Shown here piece by piece: positions 4,744 to 21,192 of a stretch of DNA of 45,572 bases. The position numbers and the translations under genes were made by a program. Each line of letters begins with the position of its first letter. Position 1 is the first letter of the stretch. Origin of the DNA: Rhizobium sp. (GTDB lineage: Bacteria > Pseudomonadota > Alphaproteobacteria > Rhizobiales > Rhizobiaceae); NCBI GenBank assembly GCA_003527225.1, contig DPXQ01000081.1, forward strand, positions 65,577 to 111,148. The letters run 5' to 3'. The notes under the pieces were generated by a model. The model was not told the DNA's origin and did not search any database. It worked only from the letters and a program-made list of their open reading frames with translations.

Positions 4744-5020
4744 AGGCATGGATCCCGCTTCGGGCGCGCGCGAACGCACTCCTCATATGCGGATGGCATC
4801 AATATTTGCCACGAGACTTCCTGCTTTTCGTCAAAGAGCGAGGAAATAACTGCTTGCATTGGATGCCTGTAAAGAAATGTCCGGCGAATTCGAGAAAAAC
4901 CGCGATAAATGGTTTTTTAACCATGCAGCTTCAGCCAACGTTAAACTCCATGCTGTCTTATCCGACATCAGAGGCGGATTAATTTTAGCATTAATTAATT
5001 GACATGATGTCGTCCGCCCC
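4744..5020 (+). other. Intergenic region upstream of the flaA leader
   Basis: No gene is seen. The region becomes AT-rich toward flaA and holds a 16-bp palindrome at 4909-4924 (ATGGTT, four T, AACCAT), followed by AATTTTAGCATTAATTAATT at 4981-5000. Just before the leader hairpin, 5001-5011 reads GACAT-G-ATGTC, an interrupted palindrome. The flaA promoter and perhaps the end of the fliP operon must lie here, but no sigma-factor consensus could be assigned with confidence. Confidence 0.5.
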
Positions 5021-5074
5021 TGCCGGTAGGAAAACCCGGCATGTCCTCCATCGTATCTAGTATCCAAGGGGACA
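5021..5074 (+). promoter_or_regulatory. flaA leader: conserved hairpin plus SD-pairing strand
   Basis: Hairpin I is TGCCGG (5021-5026), a 9-nt loop and CCGGCA (5036-5041). The following strand TGTCCTC (5042-5048) can pair over 7 bp, with one G-U pair, with GGGGACA (5068-5074). GGGGACA contains the ribosome-binding site, and the ATG is at 5079. Equivalent structures stand before the other three flagellin genes. The pairing is read directly from the sequence. A regulatory role, for example as a FlbT target, is inferred. Confidence 0.6.
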
Positions 5075-5078
5075 CATC

Positions 5079-6041
5079 ATGACCAGCATCATGACCAATA
5101 CCGCTGCACTCGCAGCTCTCGACACGCTTCGTTCGATCAGCGCCGATCTCGATAACACCCAGGGCCGCATTTCTTCCGGCTACCGCGTTGGATCGGCTTC
5201 CGACAACGCTGCCTACTGGTCGATCGCCACCACCATGCGTTCGGACAACAAGGCTCTCTCGGCTGTCAGCGATGCGCTCGGCTTTGGCGCTGCCAAGACC
5301 GACACCGCCTATACCGGCATGGAAGCGGCCATCAATGTCGTGTCGGAGATCAAGGCAAAGCTCGTTGCCGCCCGCGAGCCGGCTGTCGACAAGGACAAGA
5401 TCAACAAGGAACTGACCGAGCTGAAGTCGCAGCTCTCCTCGATTTCGCAGTCGGCTTCGTTCTCCGGTGAGAACTGGCTCTACAACGAATCGACGACGGC
5501 TGTCGGCACCAAGGAAATGGTCGGCTCGTTCGTCCGCGCCGCAAATGGCACGGTTTCCGTCGAAACGCTGACTTTCGATGCAGCCGACTCCGTCCTGATC
5601 GATACCAACGACGCCAACCTCGGCCTGCTGACCAAGGGCTTCGAGGTCACACAGCCTTCCGGCGCAACGACCACCGCCGCGACCTACTTCCTGGTTGATG
5701 CCGGTTCGACGACGTCAGCCACCGGCTCTGTCATCGAACTGACCACGTCCATGAGCGATGAGGACCTCGAAGGCATGATCTCGGCAGTCGACGCCATGCT
5801 GCAGGATATGACCGACGTCGGTGCAACGCTCGGTGCGACCAACAGCCGAATCGAGATGCAGACCAATTTCGTCGCCGACCTCATGGACGTGATCGACACC
5901 GGTGTCGGTCGTCTCGTCGACGCGGACATGAACGAGGAATCGACCAGGCTCAAGGCGCTCCAGACCCAGCAGCAGCTCGGTATCCAGGCGCTCTCGATCG
6001 CCAACTCGAACTCGCAGAACATTCTGTCGCTGTTCCGTTAA
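5079..6041 (+). CDS. flaA: Flagellin A
   Basis: A 320-residue flagellin. The N-terminal D0/D1 helices (MTSIMTNTAALAALDTLRS, then ISSGYRVGSASDNAAYWSIA) and the C-terminal D1/D0 helices (residues about 275-320, ending ALSIANSNSQNILSLFR) are conserved. The central part is short and Thr/Ser-rich, as in complex rhizobial filaments. It is secreted through the flagellar type III gate and polymerised on the hook-associated proteins. The start is set by AAGGGG 8 nt upstream. First of four paralogues of exactly equal length. It shares long identical DNA tracts with flaB. In S. meliloti the first flagellin of the cluster is the principal subunit; that role is inferred here from position. Confidence 0.96.
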   Translation: MTSIMTNTAALAALDTLRSISADLDNTQGRISSGYRVGSASDNAAYWSIATTMRSDNKALSAVSDALGFGAAKTDTAYTGMEAAINVVSEIKAKLVAAREPAVDKDKINKELTELKSQLSSISQSASFSGENWLYNESTTAVGTKEMVGSFVRAANGTVSVETLTFDAADSVLIDTNDANLGLLTKGFEVTQPSGATTTAATYFLVDAGSTTSATGSVIELTTSMSDEDLEGMISAVDAMLQDMTDVGATLGATNSRIEMQTNFVADLMDVIDTGVGRLVDADMNEESTRLKALQTQQQLGIQALSIANSNSQNILSLFR

Positions 6042-6088
6042 TCGGATCCGCGATCCAGCCCAGAGATGGGCGGGAACAGGAGAAATTA

Positions 6089-6120
6089 GACCGCGCCCCC
6101 CTGGGCGCGGTCTTTTCGTT
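6089..6120 (+). terminator. Rho-independent terminator after flaA
   Basis: A perfect 10-bp stem GACCGCGCCC / GGGCGCGGTC (6089-6098 and 6103-6112) with a 4-nt loop is followed by TTTTCGTTT. It lies 48 bp after the flaA stop. Confidence 0.9.
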
Positions 6121-6318
6121 TAGGGAATGATTCTGACTCATTGCTGACAGCCTTCATGCCGCATCAACTCCCCCATGACGCTATTGGCCAAGGTTCGCGA
6201 GCCGCCTTTCCAGAAATCCATGATTTTCACGCGCCAGGCGAGAGCCGGTCGGGCTGAATCCGTCTGTTTCCGCCAGCGCGTAAAATATATTGCAGACCGC
6301 AGTCCGGCTTTAGCATCT

Positions 6319-6331
6319 ATTAACCTTAATA
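6319..6331 (+). promoter_or_regulatory. 13-mer shared upstream of flaB and flaD
   Basis: ATTAACCTTAATA lies 148 bp before the flaB ATG. The same 13-mer is found 145 bp before the flaD ATG. The rest of 6121-6406 shows no gene. It may be a binding site or part of the promoter; the assignment rests only on exact recurrence at nearly equal distance. Confidence 0.4.
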
Positions 6332-6406
6332 GAGTTTACTACAGATATCAAAACGACGGATTAACCAATTGTAAACAAAGGTTAATTGCATGAAGCAGGC
6401 TGTCGT

Positions 6407-6460
6407 TGCCGGTATCGAAATCCGGTATGTCCCTTCCCAATTTCCTGTCAATAAGGGGCA
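6407..6460 (+). promoter_or_regulatory. flaB leader: conserved hairpin plus SD-pairing strand
   Basis: Hairpin I is TGCCGG (6407-6412), a 9-nt loop and CCGGTA (6422-6427), with one G-U pair. TGTCCC (6428-6433) can pair with GGGGCA (6455-6460), which overlaps the ribosome-binding site. ATG at 6467. The sequence just upstream, GCATGAAGCAG (6389-6399), also recurs before flaD. Confidence 0.6.
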
Positions 6461-6466
6461 GTACCT

Positions 6467-7429
6467 ATGACGAGTATTATGACAAATACCGCTGCAATCG
6501 CAGCTCTTGACACCCTGCGCTCGATCAACTCCGATCTCGAAACCACGCAGAGCCGCGTATCTTCGGGCTACCGCGTTGAATCCGCTGCCGACAACGCCGC
6601 CTACTGGTCGATCGCCACCACCATGCGTTCGGACAACAAGGCTCTCTCGGCTGTCAGCGACGCGCTCGGCTTTGGCGCAGCCAAGACCGATACCGCCTAT
6701 ACCGGCATGGAAGCGTCCATCAATGTCGTGTCGGAGATCAAGGCCAAGCTCGTTGCCGCCCGCGAGCCGGGTGTCGACAAGGACAAGATCAACAAGGAAC
6801 TGACCGAGCTGAAGTCGCAGCTCTCCTCGATTTCGCAGTCGGCTTCGTTCTCCGGTGAGAACTGGCTCTACAACGAATCGACGACGGCTGTCGGCACCAG
6901 GGAAATGGTCGGCTCCTTCGTCCGCGCCGCAGATGGCACGGTTTCCGTTGAAACGCTGGTTTTCAATGCAGCCGACTCCGTCCTGATCGATACCGCCAAC
7001 GCCAACCTTGGCCTGCTGACCAAGGGCTTCCAGGTCACACAACCTTCAGGCACGACGACCACCACCGCGACCTACTTCCTGGTTAACGCCTCCTCAACGA
7101 CGGCAGCCACCGGCTCTGTCATCGAACTGACCACGTCCACGACCGACGACAACCTCGAAGGCATGATCTCGGCAGTCGACGCCATGCTGCAGGATATGAC
7201 TGACGTCGGTGCAACACTCGGTGCGACCAACAGCCGAATCGAGATGCAGGCCGACTTCGTGGCCGACCTCATGGACGTGATCGACACCGGCGTGGGCCGT
7301 CTCGTCGATGCTGACATGAACGAGGAGTCGACCAGGCTCAAGGCGCTCCAGACCCAGCAGCAGCTCGGTATCCAGGCGCTCTCGATCGCCAACTCGAACT
7401 CGCAGAACATCCTGTCGCTGTTCAAGTAA
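6467..7429 (+). CDS. flaB: Flagellin B
   Basis: A 320-residue flagellin, very close to the product of flaA throughout and nearly identical over residues 45-150 and the last 80 residues. Differences cluster in the short central Thr-rich part. D0/D1 helices are complete at both ends (MTSIMTNTAAIAALDTLRS at the start, NSNSQNILSLFK at the end). Start chosen at the ATG 6 nt after AAGGGGCA. A 128-bp block (6772-6899) is identical to flaA 5384-5511, including third codon positions, which suggests recent gene conversion. Confidence 0.96.
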   Translation: MTSIMTNTAAIAALDTLRSINSDLETTQSRVSSGYRVESAADNAAYWSIATTMRSDNKALSAVSDALGFGAAKTDTAYTGMEASINVVSEIKAKLVAAREPGVDKDKINKELTELKSQLSSISQSASFSGENWLYNESTTAVGTREMVGSFVRAADGTVSVETLVFNAADSVLIDTANANLGLLTKGFQVTQPSGTTTTTATYFLVNASSTTAATGSVIELTTSTTDDNLEGMISAVDAMLQDMTDVGATLGATNSRIEMQADFVADLMDVIDTGVGRLVDADMNEESTRLKALQTQQQLGIQALSIANSNSQNILSLFK

Positions 7430-7480
7430 GAGCGATAGCCTTCCGGAAGGCCCAAGGGCTCTCCGCGCCGGATCTGACGG

Positions 7481-7520
7481 AAATGCCGCGTTCTTCCCGA
7501 ACGCGGCATTTTTTCGTTTT
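7481..7520 (+). terminator. Rho-independent terminator after flaB
   Basis: A 13-bp perfect stem, AAATGCCGCGTTC (7481-7493) with GAACGCGGCATTT (7499-7511), 5-nt loop, followed by a T-rich tract (TTTTCGTTTT). It begins 51 bp after the flaB stop. Confidence 0.92.
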
Positions 7521-7561
7521 CCCGCAACAGATTAACAATTCGCATCCTGCATTTAGGATTC

Positions 7562-7574
7562 ATTAACCTTAATA
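7562..7574 (+). promoter_or_regulatory. 13-mer shared upstream of flaD and flaB
   Basis: A second exact copy of ATTAACCTTAATA, 145 bp before the flaD start. Related TTAACC words also occur upstream of flaC (around 8855-8880) and flaA (4918), but without the full 13-mer. Confidence 0.4.
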
Positions 7575-7647
7575 ATGTCTTTTGATCCCATCAGAACGGT
7601 GGGCCGGACGAACACAAGATCCGGACGTGCATGAAGCAGACTCCCGT

Positions 7648-7701
7648 TGCCGGTGTTTTACTCCGGCATGTCCCTTTCAAAATTCCTGTCAACGAGGGGC
7701 A
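7648..7701 (+). promoter_or_regulatory. flaD leader: conserved hairpin plus SD-pairing strand
   Basis: Hairpin I is TGCCGG (7648-7653), a 9-nt loop and CCGGCA (7663-7668). TGTCCC (7669-7674) can pair with GGGGCA (7696-7701), which covers the ribosome-binding site. ATG at 7707. An in-frame ATG at 7647 sits at the hairpin and has no ribosome-binding site, so it is not used as the start. Confidence 0.6.
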
Positions 7702-7706
7702 GTATA

Positions 7707-8669
7707 ATGACGAGCTTGATGACGAATACCGCTGCGATCGCAGCTCTTGACACTCTGCGTTCGATCACGAGCGCAATGGAGGAAACCCAAAATCGCGTTT
7801 CCTCTGGTTACAGGGTTGAATCGGCTTCCGACAACGCCGCCTATTGGTCGATCGCCACCACGATGCGCTCCGACAACAAGGCGCTTTCCGCTGTACAGGA
7901 CGCTCTCGGCTTCGGCGCCGCCAAGACGGATACCGCCTATACCGGCATGGAGGCGACCGTTAATGTCGTGTCGGAGATCAAGGCCAAGCTCGTTGCCGCC
8001 CGCGAACCGGGTGTCGACAAGGACAAGATCAACAAGGAACTGAAGGAGCTCAAGGCTCAACTGAATTCGATTGCCGAATCGGCATCGTTCTCGGGCGAGA
8101 ATTGGCTCTTCAACGAGAGCACCGCCGCTGTCGGGACCAAGGAAATGATGGGCTCCTTCGTCCGCTCCGCGGATGGCCTTGTCTCGGTTTCGACACTGAC
8201 CTTCGATACCGCCGATTCCGTCCTGATTGACACTGTTGACGCCACGCGTGGCCTGCTGACCAAGGATTATGAAGTCGATGTGACCATCAGCGGCACCGCG
8301 ACCAAGGCAACCTACTTCCTTGTAAGCGCAGGCGGAACGGGCACGAGCGGCAGCGTCATTGAGTTGACCACAACTACCACCGATGACCAGGTCGAAGGCA
8401 TGATTTCGGCCATCGATGCCATCCTTGCGGACATTACCGACGCTGCGGCAACTCTCGGCGCGATCAATATGCGCGTCGAAATGCAGACGAACTTCGTCGC
8501 CGACCTCATGGACGTGATCGATACCGGCGTCGGTCGCCTCGTCGATGCGGATATGAACGAGGAGTCGACCAGGCTCAAGGCCCTTCAGACCCAGCAGCAA
8601 CTCGGCATCCAGGCGCTCTCGATCGCCAACTCGAACTCGCAGAACATTCTGTCGCTGTTCAAGAACTAA
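7707..8669 (+). CDS. flaD: Flagellin D (third flagellin of the cluster)
   Basis: A 320-residue flagellin with the start MTSLMTNTAAIAALDTLRS. The in-frame start 60 bp upstream would add 20 residues with no flagellin similarity and would run through the conserved leader, so 7707 is preferred. GAGGGG stands 8 nt before it, and this start gives exactly the same length as the other three flagellins. The central region (about residues 165-235) differs from flaA and flaB, while the C-terminal 60 residues are nearly identical. The letter D follows the S. meliloti order flaA-flaB-flaD-flaC and is an inference from position. Confidence 0.93.
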   Translation: MTSLMTNTAAIAALDTLRSITSAMEETQNRVSSGYRVESASDNAAYWSIATTMRSDNKALSAVQDALGFGAAKTDTAYTGMEATVNVVSEIKAKLVAAREPGVDKDKINKELKELKAQLNSIAESASFSGENWLFNESTAAVGTKEMMGSFVRSADGLVSVSTLTFDTADSVLIDTVDATRGLLTKDYEVDVTISGTATKATYFLVSAGGTGTSGSVIELTTTTTDDQVEGMISAIDAILADITDAAATLGAINMRVEMQTNFVADLMDVIDTGVGRLVDADMNEESTRLKALQTQQQLGIQALSIANSNSQNILSLFKN

Positions 8670-8723
8670 GAAGAGAGGCGGGCTCAACGCCTTCCTTTCC
8701 GAGAAGACGGAACAACCATTCGA

Positions 8724-8760
8724 CGCCGCGGCCCGCACAAGGCCGCGGCGTTTTGCGTTT
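8724..8760 (+). terminator. Rho-independent terminator after flaD
   Basis: A 10-bp stem CGCCGCGGCC (8724-8733) / GGCCGCGGCG (8741-8750), 7-nt loop, followed by TTTTGCGTTT. Confidence 0.9.
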
Positions 8761-8954
8761 CCGGCCCGCCGGTGTTCCGCGGAAACGCATTGCGAATTTT
8801 GGCCCCGATACGTTGATGACTTGTTTACAGAGTTTAACAAATCCTTTATTGCGTTAACCACTTGTTAACCTTCTTGTCGTTAAGAAATTATTAACAACGT
8901 CGGGTCAGCCGCCAGGGCAAACAGCTGGCTGATAAGCATGATGCAGTCCGTCGT

Positions 8955-9004
8955 TGCCGGTAGCGTATTTGAATCCGGCATGTCCCGTAGACCTTAGTGG
9001 GGCA
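8955..9004 (+). promoter_or_regulatory. flaC leader: conserved hairpin plus SD-pairing strand
   Basis: Hairpin I is TGCCGG (8955-8960), a 14-nt loop and CCGGCA (8975-8980). TGTCCC (8981-8986) can pair with GGGGCA (8999-9004) at the ribosome-binding site. ATG at 9009. The loop and the spacer differ in length from the other three leaders, yet both helices are kept. The AT-rich stretch 8810-8900 upstream holds several TTAACC/GTTAA words and probably the promoter. No gene is seen between flaD and flaC. Confidence 0.6.
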
Positions 9005-9008
9005 ATCA

Positions 9009-9971
9009 ATGACCAGCATCATGACCAACACCGCCGCAATGGCGGCTCTACAAACTCTCCGAACCATCGACTCGAACATGCAAGAGACGCAGGCGCGTAT
9101 CTCCTCCGGCTACCGCGTTGCGACCGCTGCGGACAACGCCGCCTACTGGTCGATCGCAACCACGATGCGCTCTGACAACGCCGCACTGTCTACCGTGCAG
9201 GATGCCCTCGGACTCGGTGCCGCCAAGACAGACACCGCCTATACCGGCCTTGAATCGGCTGTCGAAGTCGTCACGGAGATCAAGTCCAAACTCGTCGCCG
9301 CACGCGAACCGGGCGTCGACAAGGGGAAGATCAACAAGGAACTCGCCGAGCTGAAAAACCAGCTCGCGGCAATCTCCGAATCTGCATCATTCTCCGGTGA
9401 GAACTGGCTGTACAACACGTCGACCGCGGCGCCCGGAACGAAGGAGATTGTTGCCTCCTTCAACCGCGCCACCGACGGAACCGTCTCGGTTACGACTCTC
9501 GCATTCGATATCGCCGATTCCGTGCTCATTGATACGAATAACGCCAACTACGGCGTGCTGACGCGGGGCGTATCGGTCCAACAGCCATCGGGCACAACCA
9601 CCACGACCGCCACATATTTCCTGATTAACGTCAACTCGACGACTTCGGCGACAGGCACCGAGGTGATGTTGACCGACAGCACGGGCTACGACGTACTGGA
9701 CGGCATGATCAGCGCCGTGGACCTGGTGCTTCAGCAACTGACCGATTCCGCCTCGACTCTTGGTGCGATCACGAGCCGTATCGAGATGCAGGATGAATTC
9801 GTGTCGACCTTGATGGACGTGATCGACAAGGGCGTGGGCCGCCTCGTCGATGCCGACATGAACGAGGAATCGACGAAGCTGAAGGCGCTGCAGACGCAGC
9901 AGCAGCTTGGCATTCAGGCGCTTTCGATCGCCAATACCAATGCCGAAAACATCCTCACTCTGTTCAAGTAA
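9009..9971 (+). CDS. flaC: Flagellin C (fourth flagellin, most divergent)
   Basis: A 320-residue flagellin starting MTSIMTNTAAMAALQTLRT. An in-frame ATG 12 bp upstream falls inside the ribosome-binding-site region, so 9009 is preferred. The D0/D1 ends are kept (ISSGYRVATAADNAAYWSIA; C terminus IANTNAENILTLFK), but this paralogue differs most from the other three: VEVVTEIKSKLV instead of NVVSEIKAKLV, and a distinct central region. It probably makes a minor filament component. The letter C follows S. meliloti order and is inferred. Confidence 0.93.
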   Translation: MTSIMTNTAAMAALQTLRTIDSNMQETQARISSGYRVATAADNAAYWSIATTMRSDNAALSTVQDALGLGAAKTDTAYTGLESAVEVVTEIKSKLVAAREPGVDKGKINKELAELKNQLAAISESASFSGENWLYNTSTAAPGTKEIVASFNRATDGTVSVTTLAFDIADSVLIDTNNANYGVLTRGVSVQQPSGTTTTTATYFLINVNSTTSATGTEVMLTDSTGYDVLDGMISAVDLVLQQLTDSASTLGAITSRIEMQDEFVSTLMDVIDKGVGRLVDADMNEESTKLKALQTQQQLGIQALSIANTNAENILTLFK

Positions 9972-20398: not shown

Positions 20399-20746
20399 AT
20401 GTACCAGTTTTCATATGCCGAAATCATGGAGGATGGCGTCGCTGACGCCAAGGACCGTGAACGGCAAGCACTGACCCGGTCAATCGAACTACTCGAGAGG
20501 GCGCGTGATGAAAGCGGTTATTCGCGGGAGGCCATCGAGGCTCTCTTCTACACCCGAAGGGTATGGATCCGATTCATCGAGGATCTGAAACAGCCGGAAA
20601 ACGAGCTTGGCTCCGAATTGCGGGCCAATCTCATTTCCATCGCCATATGGATCTTGAAGGAATGCGACCGGATCAGGAAACGGCAATCCAGCAACTTCCA
20701 GGGCATAATTGACGTGACAACCATCATCAGGGATGGACTGAAATGA
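20399..20746 (+). CDS. flaF: Flagellin synthesis regulator FlaF
   Basis: A 115-residue, mostly helical cytoplasmic protein. Family motifs are [30 protein letters not shown] and [36 protein letters not shown]. In Caulobacter FlaF is needed for flagellin synthesis and opposes FlbT, which binds flagellin mRNA leaders. Here flaF is directly followed by flbT with a 4-bp overlap. Possible targets in this window are the conserved leaders before the four flagellin genes. Confidence 0.93.
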
Positions 20747-21192
20747 AGAGCACACTGCGCATATCACTTAAATCCGGGGAACGTATCTTCATCAATGGAG
20801 CAGTGCTGCGCGTCGACCGGAAGGTCGCGCTGGAGTTCCTGAATGACGTGACGTTTCTGCTGGAGAACCACGTCCTTCAGCCTGAAGATGCTACGACGCC
20901 GCTGCGTCAGCTCTACTTCATCGCACAGATGATTCTGATCAACCCGGAGGGCCGTGATCAATCGATGGCGATGTTCCGCAAGTCGGTCACCATGTTGCTG
21001 ACCTGCTTCGAGAACGAGGAAGTGCTCGCCGAGTTGAAGCGGATCGACGGCATGGTCGCCTCCGGCCGCGCCTTCGACGCCCTGAAGGCGATCCGTGGCC
21101 TCTATCCGATCGAGGATCAGATCCTGAACAGCCAGGAAATGACTGCTGCGACGGTTGAGCAGATTCGCAGGGAGATTGCGCCATGGCGGTAG
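20743..21192 (+). CDS. flbT: Flagellin post-transcriptional repressor FlbT
   Basis: A 149-residue protein that begins [45 protein letters not shown], the FlbT family signature, and has full family length. In Caulobacter crescentus FlbT binds the 5' untranslated region of flagellin mRNA and promotes its decay when the hook-basal body is incomplete. In some rhizobia and Brucella it can act positively. It overlaps flaF by 4 bp and flgD by 10 bp. Confidence 0.95.

Follow-up and report, generated by a model that had tools for sequence, protein, structure and literature searches.

Four flagellin genes, flaA, flaB, flaD and flaC, lie on the forward strand of a 45,572-nucleotide (nt) stretch of the Rhizobium sp. 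contig DPXQ01000081.1 (the window), and the locus raises the question of what RNA, if any, their similar upstream regions encode. A first-pass annotation described a conserved two-helix leader that could mask the ribosome-binding site, suggested FlbT as the protein acting on it, and proposed covariation analysis and a covariance-model search of relatives as checks. Our analysis indicates that the flagellin leader is almost certainly a real structured RNA. The two helices are real, although they form only its 3′ half, and three further helices upstream had been overlooked. Comparison of the sequences suggests a leader of ∼115 nt in which a stem, S1, closes a three-way junction holding two hairpins, H0 and P0, followed by a hairpin, P1, and then by P2, the helix on the Shine-Dalgarno strand.

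Direct reading bears out the first description of the 3′ half. The P1 hairpin TGCCGG/CCGGYA precedes all four genes, with loops of 9, 9, 9 and 14 nt; the core of P2 encloses spacers of 19, 21, 21 and 12 nt, and in flaA this helix has 7 base pairs (bp), one of them U·G. Both helices are present when each leader is folded singly. The elements of the four leaders are as follows.

4973–4977, + strand: flaA S1, 5′ strand GGCGG, pairs with 5014–5018 (RNAfold and S1 pairing in relatives)
4978–4999, + strand: flaA hairpin H0, arms 4978–4984/4993–4999, ATTAATT/AATTAAT
5002–5010, + strand: flaA P0 mini-hairpin, ACATGATGT
5014–5018, + strand: flaA S1, 3′ strand CCGCC (RNAfold)
5021–5041, + strand: flaA hairpin P1, arms 5021–5026/5036–5041, loop 9
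5042–5074, + strand: flaA P2, TGTCCTC 5042–5048 pairs with GGGGACA 5068–5074 at the Shine-Dalgarno site
6353–6359, + strand: flaB S1, 5′ strand ACGACGG, pairs with 6400–6406
6360–6386, + strand: flaB hairpin H0, arms 6360–6366/6380–6386, ATTAACC/GGTTAAT
6388–6396, + strand: flaB P0, GCATGAAGC
6400–6406, + strand: flaB S1, 3′ strand CTGTCGT
6407–6427, + strand: flaB hairpin P1, arms 6407–6412/6422–6427, loop 9
6428–6460, + strand: flaB P2, TGTCCCTT 6428–6435 pairs with AAGGGGCA 6453–6460
7597–7603, + strand: flaD S1, 5′ strand, weak, pairs with 7643–7649 including G-U pairs; register uncertain, absent from the RNAfold minimum
7604–7624, + strand: flaD hairpin H0, arms 7604–7608/7620–7624, CCGGA/TCCGG
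7629–7637, + strand: flaD P0, GCATGAAGC
7648–7668, + strand: flaD hairpin P1, arms 7648–7653/7663–7668, loop 9
7669–7701, + strand: flaD P2, TGTCCCTT 7669–7676 pairs with GAGGGGCA 7694–7701
8897–8903, + strand: flaC S1, 5′ strand ACGTCGG, pairs with 8948–8954 with one U-U mismatch; absent from the RNAfold minimum
8904–8933, + strand: flaC hairpin H0, arms 8904–8911/8926–8933, GTCAGCCG/TGGCTGAT
8936–8944, + strand: flaC P0, GCATGATGC
8948–8954, + strand: flaC S1, 3′ strand CCGTCGT
8955–8980, + strand: flaC hairpin P1, arms 8955–8960/8975–8980, loop 14
8981–9004, + strand: flaC P2, TGTCCCG 8981–8987 pairs with TGGGGCA 8998–9004

S1 emerged from folding whole leaders of flaA and flaB, in which a motif ahead of H0 (ACGACGG in flaB) pairs with the strand between P0 and P1 (CTGTCGT). 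RNAfold lengthens the flaA stem to 4973–4979/5012–5018. In flaD and flaC S1 is weaker and falls outside the computed minimum; the flaC strands were read from the sequence by analogy with S1 of relatives. P0 is a nearly invariant mini-hairpin, GC-AUGAN-GC, whose outer pair changes from G-C to A-T. H0 is an inverted repeat of free sequence that ends 0–5 nt before GCATGA in the upstream regions read.

The comparison draws on 72 loci from a FlaB scan, nearly all from Rhizobiaceae, which supplied 204 distinct start regions (two of them false starts). The pattern CATGANG, 12–15 nt, [CA]CGG, 5–17 nt, CCG[GT], TGT[TC]C fits 180 of the 204, and most of the others are near misses. Two start regions without the CATGA anchor were dropped, and the 109 cluster representatives less L051 gave the 108 rows of alignment A1, which may be biased because its rows were chosen for CATGA. 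Tests of H0 and S1 were model-free: arms were chosen as the best-scoring ones and judged against the same procedure on shuffled or swapped sequences. H0 is present in 144 of 198 leaders (score ≥13, loop ≤25 nt) with 89 different arms, as against 12.7% of block shuffles and 20.5% of sequences given the 5′ region of another leader. S1 was tested in the 142 of 198 leaders in which it could be anchored, the other 56 having no H0 of score 13 or an unparsed P1. Own partners score 13.75 versus 8.6 for permuted ones (0 of 5000 permutations, z 14.9), and at least six contiguous pairs form in 86 of the 142 versus 26% of swapped partners, giving 74 distinct stems of at least 6 bp. The pairing is kept across differing sequences in relatives, among them AACGACGG/CCGTCGTT, AACGGTGA/TCACCGTT, ATGGCAGG/CCTGCCAT, CATGACAGG/CCTGTCATG and ATAGTAGA/TCTACTAT. 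For P0 we found no excess of pairs beyond 3 bp.

These results extend to alignment A4, the 150 best matches of R2, a model of the full structure with 27 pairs and 25 seeds (alignment A3) in which flaB is the sole seed from the window. In A4, 90.0% of cells pair (S1 92.5, H0 76.8, P0 100, P1 87.3 and P2 99.3%) versus 30–50% when the structure is slid; A4, like A2, was fitted to a model, and results on both lean towards structure. S1 and H0 together contain 526 cells changed on both sides. When the 6903 column pairs are ranked under a tree-based null, the first 11 all belong to the predicted structure (six in S1, four in H0 and one in P1; E 0.00–0.33). Comparison shows S1 and H0 covarying as RNA helices, and P1 and P2 retaining their base pairs, across much of the order. 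Transcription starts downstream of the P1 hairpin, which would have undone the proposal of an RNA leader, are unlikely because the covarying pairs sit well upstream of P0, with H0 beginning 17–41 nt before it; the available portions of three papers on transcription starts (PMC3616915, PMC4842269, PMC10469942) give none for flagellin genes.

P1 and P2 behave differently from S1 and H0, and are conserved mostly in sequence. In A1 the fraction of cells that pair is 84.7% for P1 and 86.4% for P2, versus 33–46% for the whole structure slid, and the P1 core pairs are the same pair in 137 to 144 of the 150 A4 leaders. By the G statistic, the best of 3160 column pairs in A1 and of 3003 in A2 is one P1 pair beside the CCGG core. 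RNAalifold on the MAFFT alignment A1 recovered part of P2 and P0 and did not recover P1. The second helix is conserved well beyond the window, in other Hyphomicrobiales, and its loss there, named in the first-pass annotation as a refutation, is not what the leaders show: in a fixed register 165 of 196 leaders keep all six core P2 pairs, 24 keep five and 7 fewer, so that 189 keep at least five. Covariation in P2 is modest where that in S1 and H0 is strong, and becomes visible in freely registered duplexes parsed from 193 unique leaders of 210. Where the 5′ strand has changed, in 47 leaders, its duplex with the 3′ strand of the same leader has −6.91 kcal/mol versus −6.19 with permuted strands (22 of 10000 permutations); the corresponding frequencies are 344 of 10000 for the 24 leaders with at least two changes and 1 of 3000 for all 193. 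Recoded helices include GTCTTTTC/GGAAAGAC (L302), TGTTTC+CCTC/GAGG+GAAACA (L303), GCTT+CCCC/GGGG+AAGC (L298) and TGTTCC/GGAACA (L150 and L159).

We searched for the element with R2 and with R1, a covariance model of P1 and P2 built from 108 seeds that include the four window leaders. On the whole window with filters off, R1 finds the four leaders with E-values from 8e-12 to 2e-15, every other site having 0.09 or more; R2 finds flaA, flaD and flaC, which are not among its seeds, at E 7e-15, 1e-14 and 4e-13. In one test of 14 genomes, R1 matches every genome with an E-value no higher than 1e-9. Of 297 genomes of the order, it matches 59 at E 0.001, and R2 matches 71, the 59 of R1 and 12 more. 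In the fetched loci R1 gives 107 matches, of which 90 were read (the R1 rows), and 84 of these run precisely up to the start codon of a reading frame whose N-terminus is of flagellin type. Among the other rows, L176:1284 lies 15 nt off such a frame, L147:1115 precedes another protein, no frame was called at L166 and L176:70, and L179:291 and L181:2940 precede a divergent flagellin-like protein. On 82 sources (the window and 81 loci) R2 gives 181 matches at E 0.001, seeds included. We opened 14 matches unreported by R1, including all 13 from the 12 new genomes: 12 precede flagellin N-terminus frames, two of which start 10 and 39 nt after the match, and L301 (the sole match of G256) and L304 have no such frame and are probably false. 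A search with an exact pattern in 30 genomes gave 3 to 16 matches per genome versus 0 to 2 for the reversed pattern, among the matches listed.

At L179:291–361, L180:4110–4180 and L181:2940–3007 the junction and P1 occur without a good P2 before a different flagellin-like protein of the same clusters, starting MTVKITS or MTYKITS. Two flagellin-type genes outside the main cluster (G001:C32:51887–52285 and G001:C27:30274–30669) have no match to the leader models at the limits used. The flagellin leader of L207, from genome G342 of the class and outside the element's matches, contains TGGCATGAAGCCG, a perfect P0, ∼50 nt before the start codon, and no P1 or P2 in the part read. The H0 loop of flaC-type leaders, which lies at 8912–8925 in the window, frequently has the conserved sequence CAGGGCAAA, elsewhere as well. 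The GGGCA within this loop might substitute for the Shine-Dalgarno strand opposite UGUCC, so that this type of paralogue may have a rival pairing. The conserved AGGGCAAA of flaC was considered as a −10 box and rejected, as it is the loop of H0.

What, then, might the leader do? The computed pairing of the Shine-Dalgarno strand is 0.94–0.96 in the four window leaders, and the closed form of this helix is the only one predicted. The leader quite probably masks the ribosome-binding site, as the first-pass annotation had supposed, and we lean, less firmly, towards its use as a regulated switch. The window also encodes both proteins that the annotation had pointed to.

20399–20746, + strand: flaF, a candidate part of the control circuit (PF07309, E 3e-34)
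20743–21192, + strand: flbT, a candidate leader-binding regulator (PF07378, E 5e-43)

S1 and H0 keep their pairing and not their sequence, whereas it is mostly the sequence that is kept in the P0 block, in the core of P1 and in both strands of P2, a difference that suggests a scaffold and a recognised face. In the mechanism that we propose, P2 would keep translation low, and a trans-acting factor would recognise the parts conserved in sequence (the P0 loop, the CCGG core of P1 and UGUCCC), presented by the freely varying S1/H0 scaffold beside the helix over the ribosome-binding site. Binding would alter either the opening and closing of P2 or the decay of the mRNA, and filaments would then be made only after assembly; FlbT, with FlaF and flagellin, would be the likeliest factor. 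In the accessible portions of the literature, the lateral flagellins LafA1/2 of Bradyrhizobium are induced by FlbT at the level of translation (PMC8429497), binding of FlbT to flagellin 5′ untranslated regions is proposed for Caulobacter and Brucella, by an unclear mechanism and with opposite signs (PMC4347634), and FlbT turned up when Agrobacterium fabrum was screened for motility (PMC9812332). The element is also present at LafA-like flagellins of genomes that resemble Bradyrhizobium in protein sequence and in having two FlbT copies. In six genomes, each with two copies of FlbT and with flagellins of both large and small type, R1 and R2 match at small flagellin genes only; some of their small flagellins are without the element (L223–L225 and the first gene of L236). 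FlbT is found in 70 of the 71 genomes matched by R2 (G127 is the exception) versus 210 of 297 overall. We give an even chance to translation regulated by a protein, with FlbT first in line; FlbT itself is a candidate partner whose chances we place slightly lower.

Several observations weigh against taking the leaders for a conserved switch operated by FlbT. Taken singly, the four window leaders have folding energies no better than those of dinucleotide shuffles (z −0.3 to −1.1), and the case for structure therefore rests on comparison. No single P0, P1 or P2 pair has an E-value below 1 under the tree-based null in A1 or A2, nor are these pairs singly significant in A4, where the best P1 pair ranks 11th of 6903 (E 0.33). 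With the register of P2 held fixed, a first permutation test gave no sign of covariation (p 0.25 and 0.56), changes in this helix being of little information because U pairs with both G and A, and altered 5′ strands pair with canonical 3′ strands about as well as with their own (−7.04 versus −6.91). P2 is lost in five related leaders, L292 and L294–L297 (duplex energy −0.1 to −1.4), which keep the junction and P1 and have no UGUCCC strand; in three of them the Shine-Dalgarno region reads GGTACGAGTACC or GGTACGTGTACC, and in L294, though not clearly in the others, RNAfold covers the Shine-Dalgarno site with a short hairpin of its own, GGTA/TACC. Three flagellin-type starts in Rhizobiaceae loci (L035:4928, L041:6779 and L051:5001) have no recognisable element. 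With strict filters, R1 matches 5 of 385 genomes of the class and does so strongly in G001 and G049 only, both members of the order; a quick pattern look did not place the three weak matches before flagellins. Other alphaproteobacterial flagellin leaders, such as that of L205, which we judge to be Caulobacter-like, are without the structure, even though Caulobacter FlbT acts on flagellin leaders. The presence of FlbT is also confounded with having flagella.

The element is not confined to flagellins. R1 gives weak matches ∼30 kb from the flagellin genes in the same clusters, and at 12 such places (L103–L113 and L270, the place of L285) the downstream frame resembles a globin-type methyl-accepting chemotaxis protein (MCP), L112 least clearly. 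Pfam reported protoglobin and MCP domains in all three that were run (L104, L283 and L284), and in L104 STAS and response-regulator genes come next, with a CheA-type Hpt protein less than 1 kb further on. All 14 leaders of this protoglobin-MCP/che type (L103–L113 and L283–L285) match R2 at E 3e-7 to 0.003, and L276 is one more outside this count. In all 14, TGTYC is absent from the 10 nt that follow the pattern ending P1, and GGGRCA from the next 120 nt. The junction and P1 thus form a module that precedes the che operon without P2, both strands of which are missing together. H0-like stems occur in 12 of the 13 che-type leaders inspected (not in L112), a count made without a shuffle control. 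The element also precedes two MCP genes, L258 (by Pfam) and L259, and here it includes TGTCC and AAGGGGC strands ahead of the start codon.

These leaders allow a broader reading, which we put forward tentatively and would not bet on: a single module, the AUGAN three-way junction with P1, might mark a late motility regulon of Hyphomicrobiales flagellins, the protoglobin-MCP/che operon and some MCP genes. An RNA-binding circuit of FlbT, flagellin and FlaF might time this regulon after assembly, as a post-transcriptional stand-in for the FliA/FlgM checkpoint, which is not known from these bacteria, with P2 of flagellin and MCP leaders handing the signal to the ribosome-binding site. A folded leader probably lets the cell choose the timing of filament production, and the present one suggests how bacteria that have no known flagellar sigma factor, according to the part of PMC12826043 available to us, order their late motility genes. 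With the RNA defined, its helices named and its occurrence traced through many genomes, the action of FlbT on flagellin mRNA also becomes directly testable in model symbionts.

Of the explanations that dispense with a dedicated regulator protein, a constitutive stabiliser survives best: a tight 5′ structure would shield abundant flagellin and chemotaxis mRNAs from RNase, with P2 only tuning translation. A protective fold would keep pairing in S1 and H0 while leaving their sequence free, as observed, and the use of the junction and P1 without P2 also fits. However, the P0 block GCATGA is kept in 82 of the 90 R1 rows (the model scores GCATGA) and the P1 core pairs are nearly constant; these parts keep their sequence, and specific recognition is therefore indicated. 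Almost every flagellin leader that could be parsed moreover has P2 on its Shine-Dalgarno strand, and stability alone needs no such helix. We consider a stabiliser unlikely.

A ligand-binding riboswitch, in which a small molecule linked to motility is sensed by the junction and its invariant P0 loop, with an effect on P2, is less likely again, and we rate its chances as poor. In its favour are the conserved unpaired bases of the three-way junction and its position ahead of flagellin, che and MCP genes, a kind of gene set that cyclic di-GMP riboswitches control elsewhere. The leaders match no Rfam riboswitch family, however, few of their unpaired positions are strictly conserved and most of those few sit in a single tiny loop, and the che leaders show no P2.

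It is very improbable that the block GCATGANGC-N-CCGG is a DNA site, a class III promoter or an activator site, with the RNA pairing incidental. Sigma-28-like promoters of rhizobial flagellin genes are described in the older literature, the element marks co-regulated late motility genes, and CATGANG stands at an almost constant distance from the P1 core, 12–15 nt in the 180 of 204 start regions that fit the pattern. According to the available text of PMC4433202, flaA, flaB and flaC of S. meliloti are under the direct control of CtrA. The fixed distance is explained by the 3′ strand of S1, which lies in between, and a protein that reads DNA would not require two-sided changes, free arms or varying loops in the S1 and H0 strands that flank and enclose the block. 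The DNA reading is thus disfavoured. Least probable of all is an upstream reading frame from the ATG in P0 (GC-ATG-A) translationally coupled to flagellin, for although an ATG occurs in nearly all leaders (ATGA in 86 of the 90 R1 rows, A1 rows having been chosen for CATGA) and the flaB frame from 6390 of the window ends in a TGA overlapping the flaB start, such frames end differently (by eye, after 9 codons in two L001 leaders), the 12–15 nt spacing from P0 to P1 shifts the frame, and L178:3416, L174:2880, L162:1739 and L176:70 keep the P0 stem without ATGA. The protein-regulated leader is the preferred reading.

The genes that follow the leaders encode four flagellins of 320 amino acids, and the nearest relatives found for FlaB are from Ciceribacter and Rhizobium records (82–83% identical).

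5079–6041, + strand: flaA flagellin gene (Pfam PF00669/PF00700)
6467–7429, + strand: flaB flagellin gene (Pfam)
7707–8669, + strand: flaD flagellin gene (Pfam)
9009–9971, + strand: flaC flagellin gene (Pfam)

Elsewhere the window encodes an FlgL-like protein and a Rem-like response regulator, named by position and domain. G+C-rich inverted repeats followed by T runs lie 3′ of flaA, flaB and flaD (6085–6120, 7480–7516 and 8727–8760), as expected of separate transcripts. By eye, a conserved stretch around GCAAG lies ∼30–45 nt upstream of S1 in many loci, and CtrA-like TTAA-N7-TTAA boxes lie upstream of S1 in flaC-type leaders (8880–8894 in the window); both are probably promoter parts.

Is the element known? 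The first-pass annotation did not recognise it as a described structure, and Rfam 15 agrees, with no match at gathering score in the window and 12 loci. With E-values up to 10, window positions 4900–9060 give two matches, far below gathering scores and off the leaders. We found no description of this leader in the accessible portions of open-licence papers, most subscription papers lying outside that search. Because it has neither an Rfam 15 match nor a description in the open-licence literature, the flagellin leader would be a new RNA family.

The closest functional parallel is the FlbT-controlled 5′ untranslated region of Caulobacter crescentus flagellins (fljK and others), likewise a flagellin mRNA leader, and FlbT and FlaF are present here too. 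In contrast, the leaders judged Caulobacter-like show no S1, H0, P1 or P2, and the class sample gave no strong match outside the order. RF01736 (flg-Rhizobiales) is similarly a candidate cis-regulatory RNA of flagellar genes in Rhizobiales (PMC2864571, as far as its available text goes). A search of 12 genomes placed it in three, with two matches over the cut-off, before a gene that is flgF-like by sequence, in two genomes that also have the leader described here at their small flagellins. Its sequence and fold are nevertheless unlike those described here, and its covariance model matches no window leader over gathering score. Autoregulatory leaders of ribosomal protein genes and RNA thermometers also hide the Shine-Dalgarno site, and the present leaders share with them a predicted helix over the Shine-Dalgarno strand; they differ in having no Rfam match to such families and in adding a conserved three-way junction to that helix.

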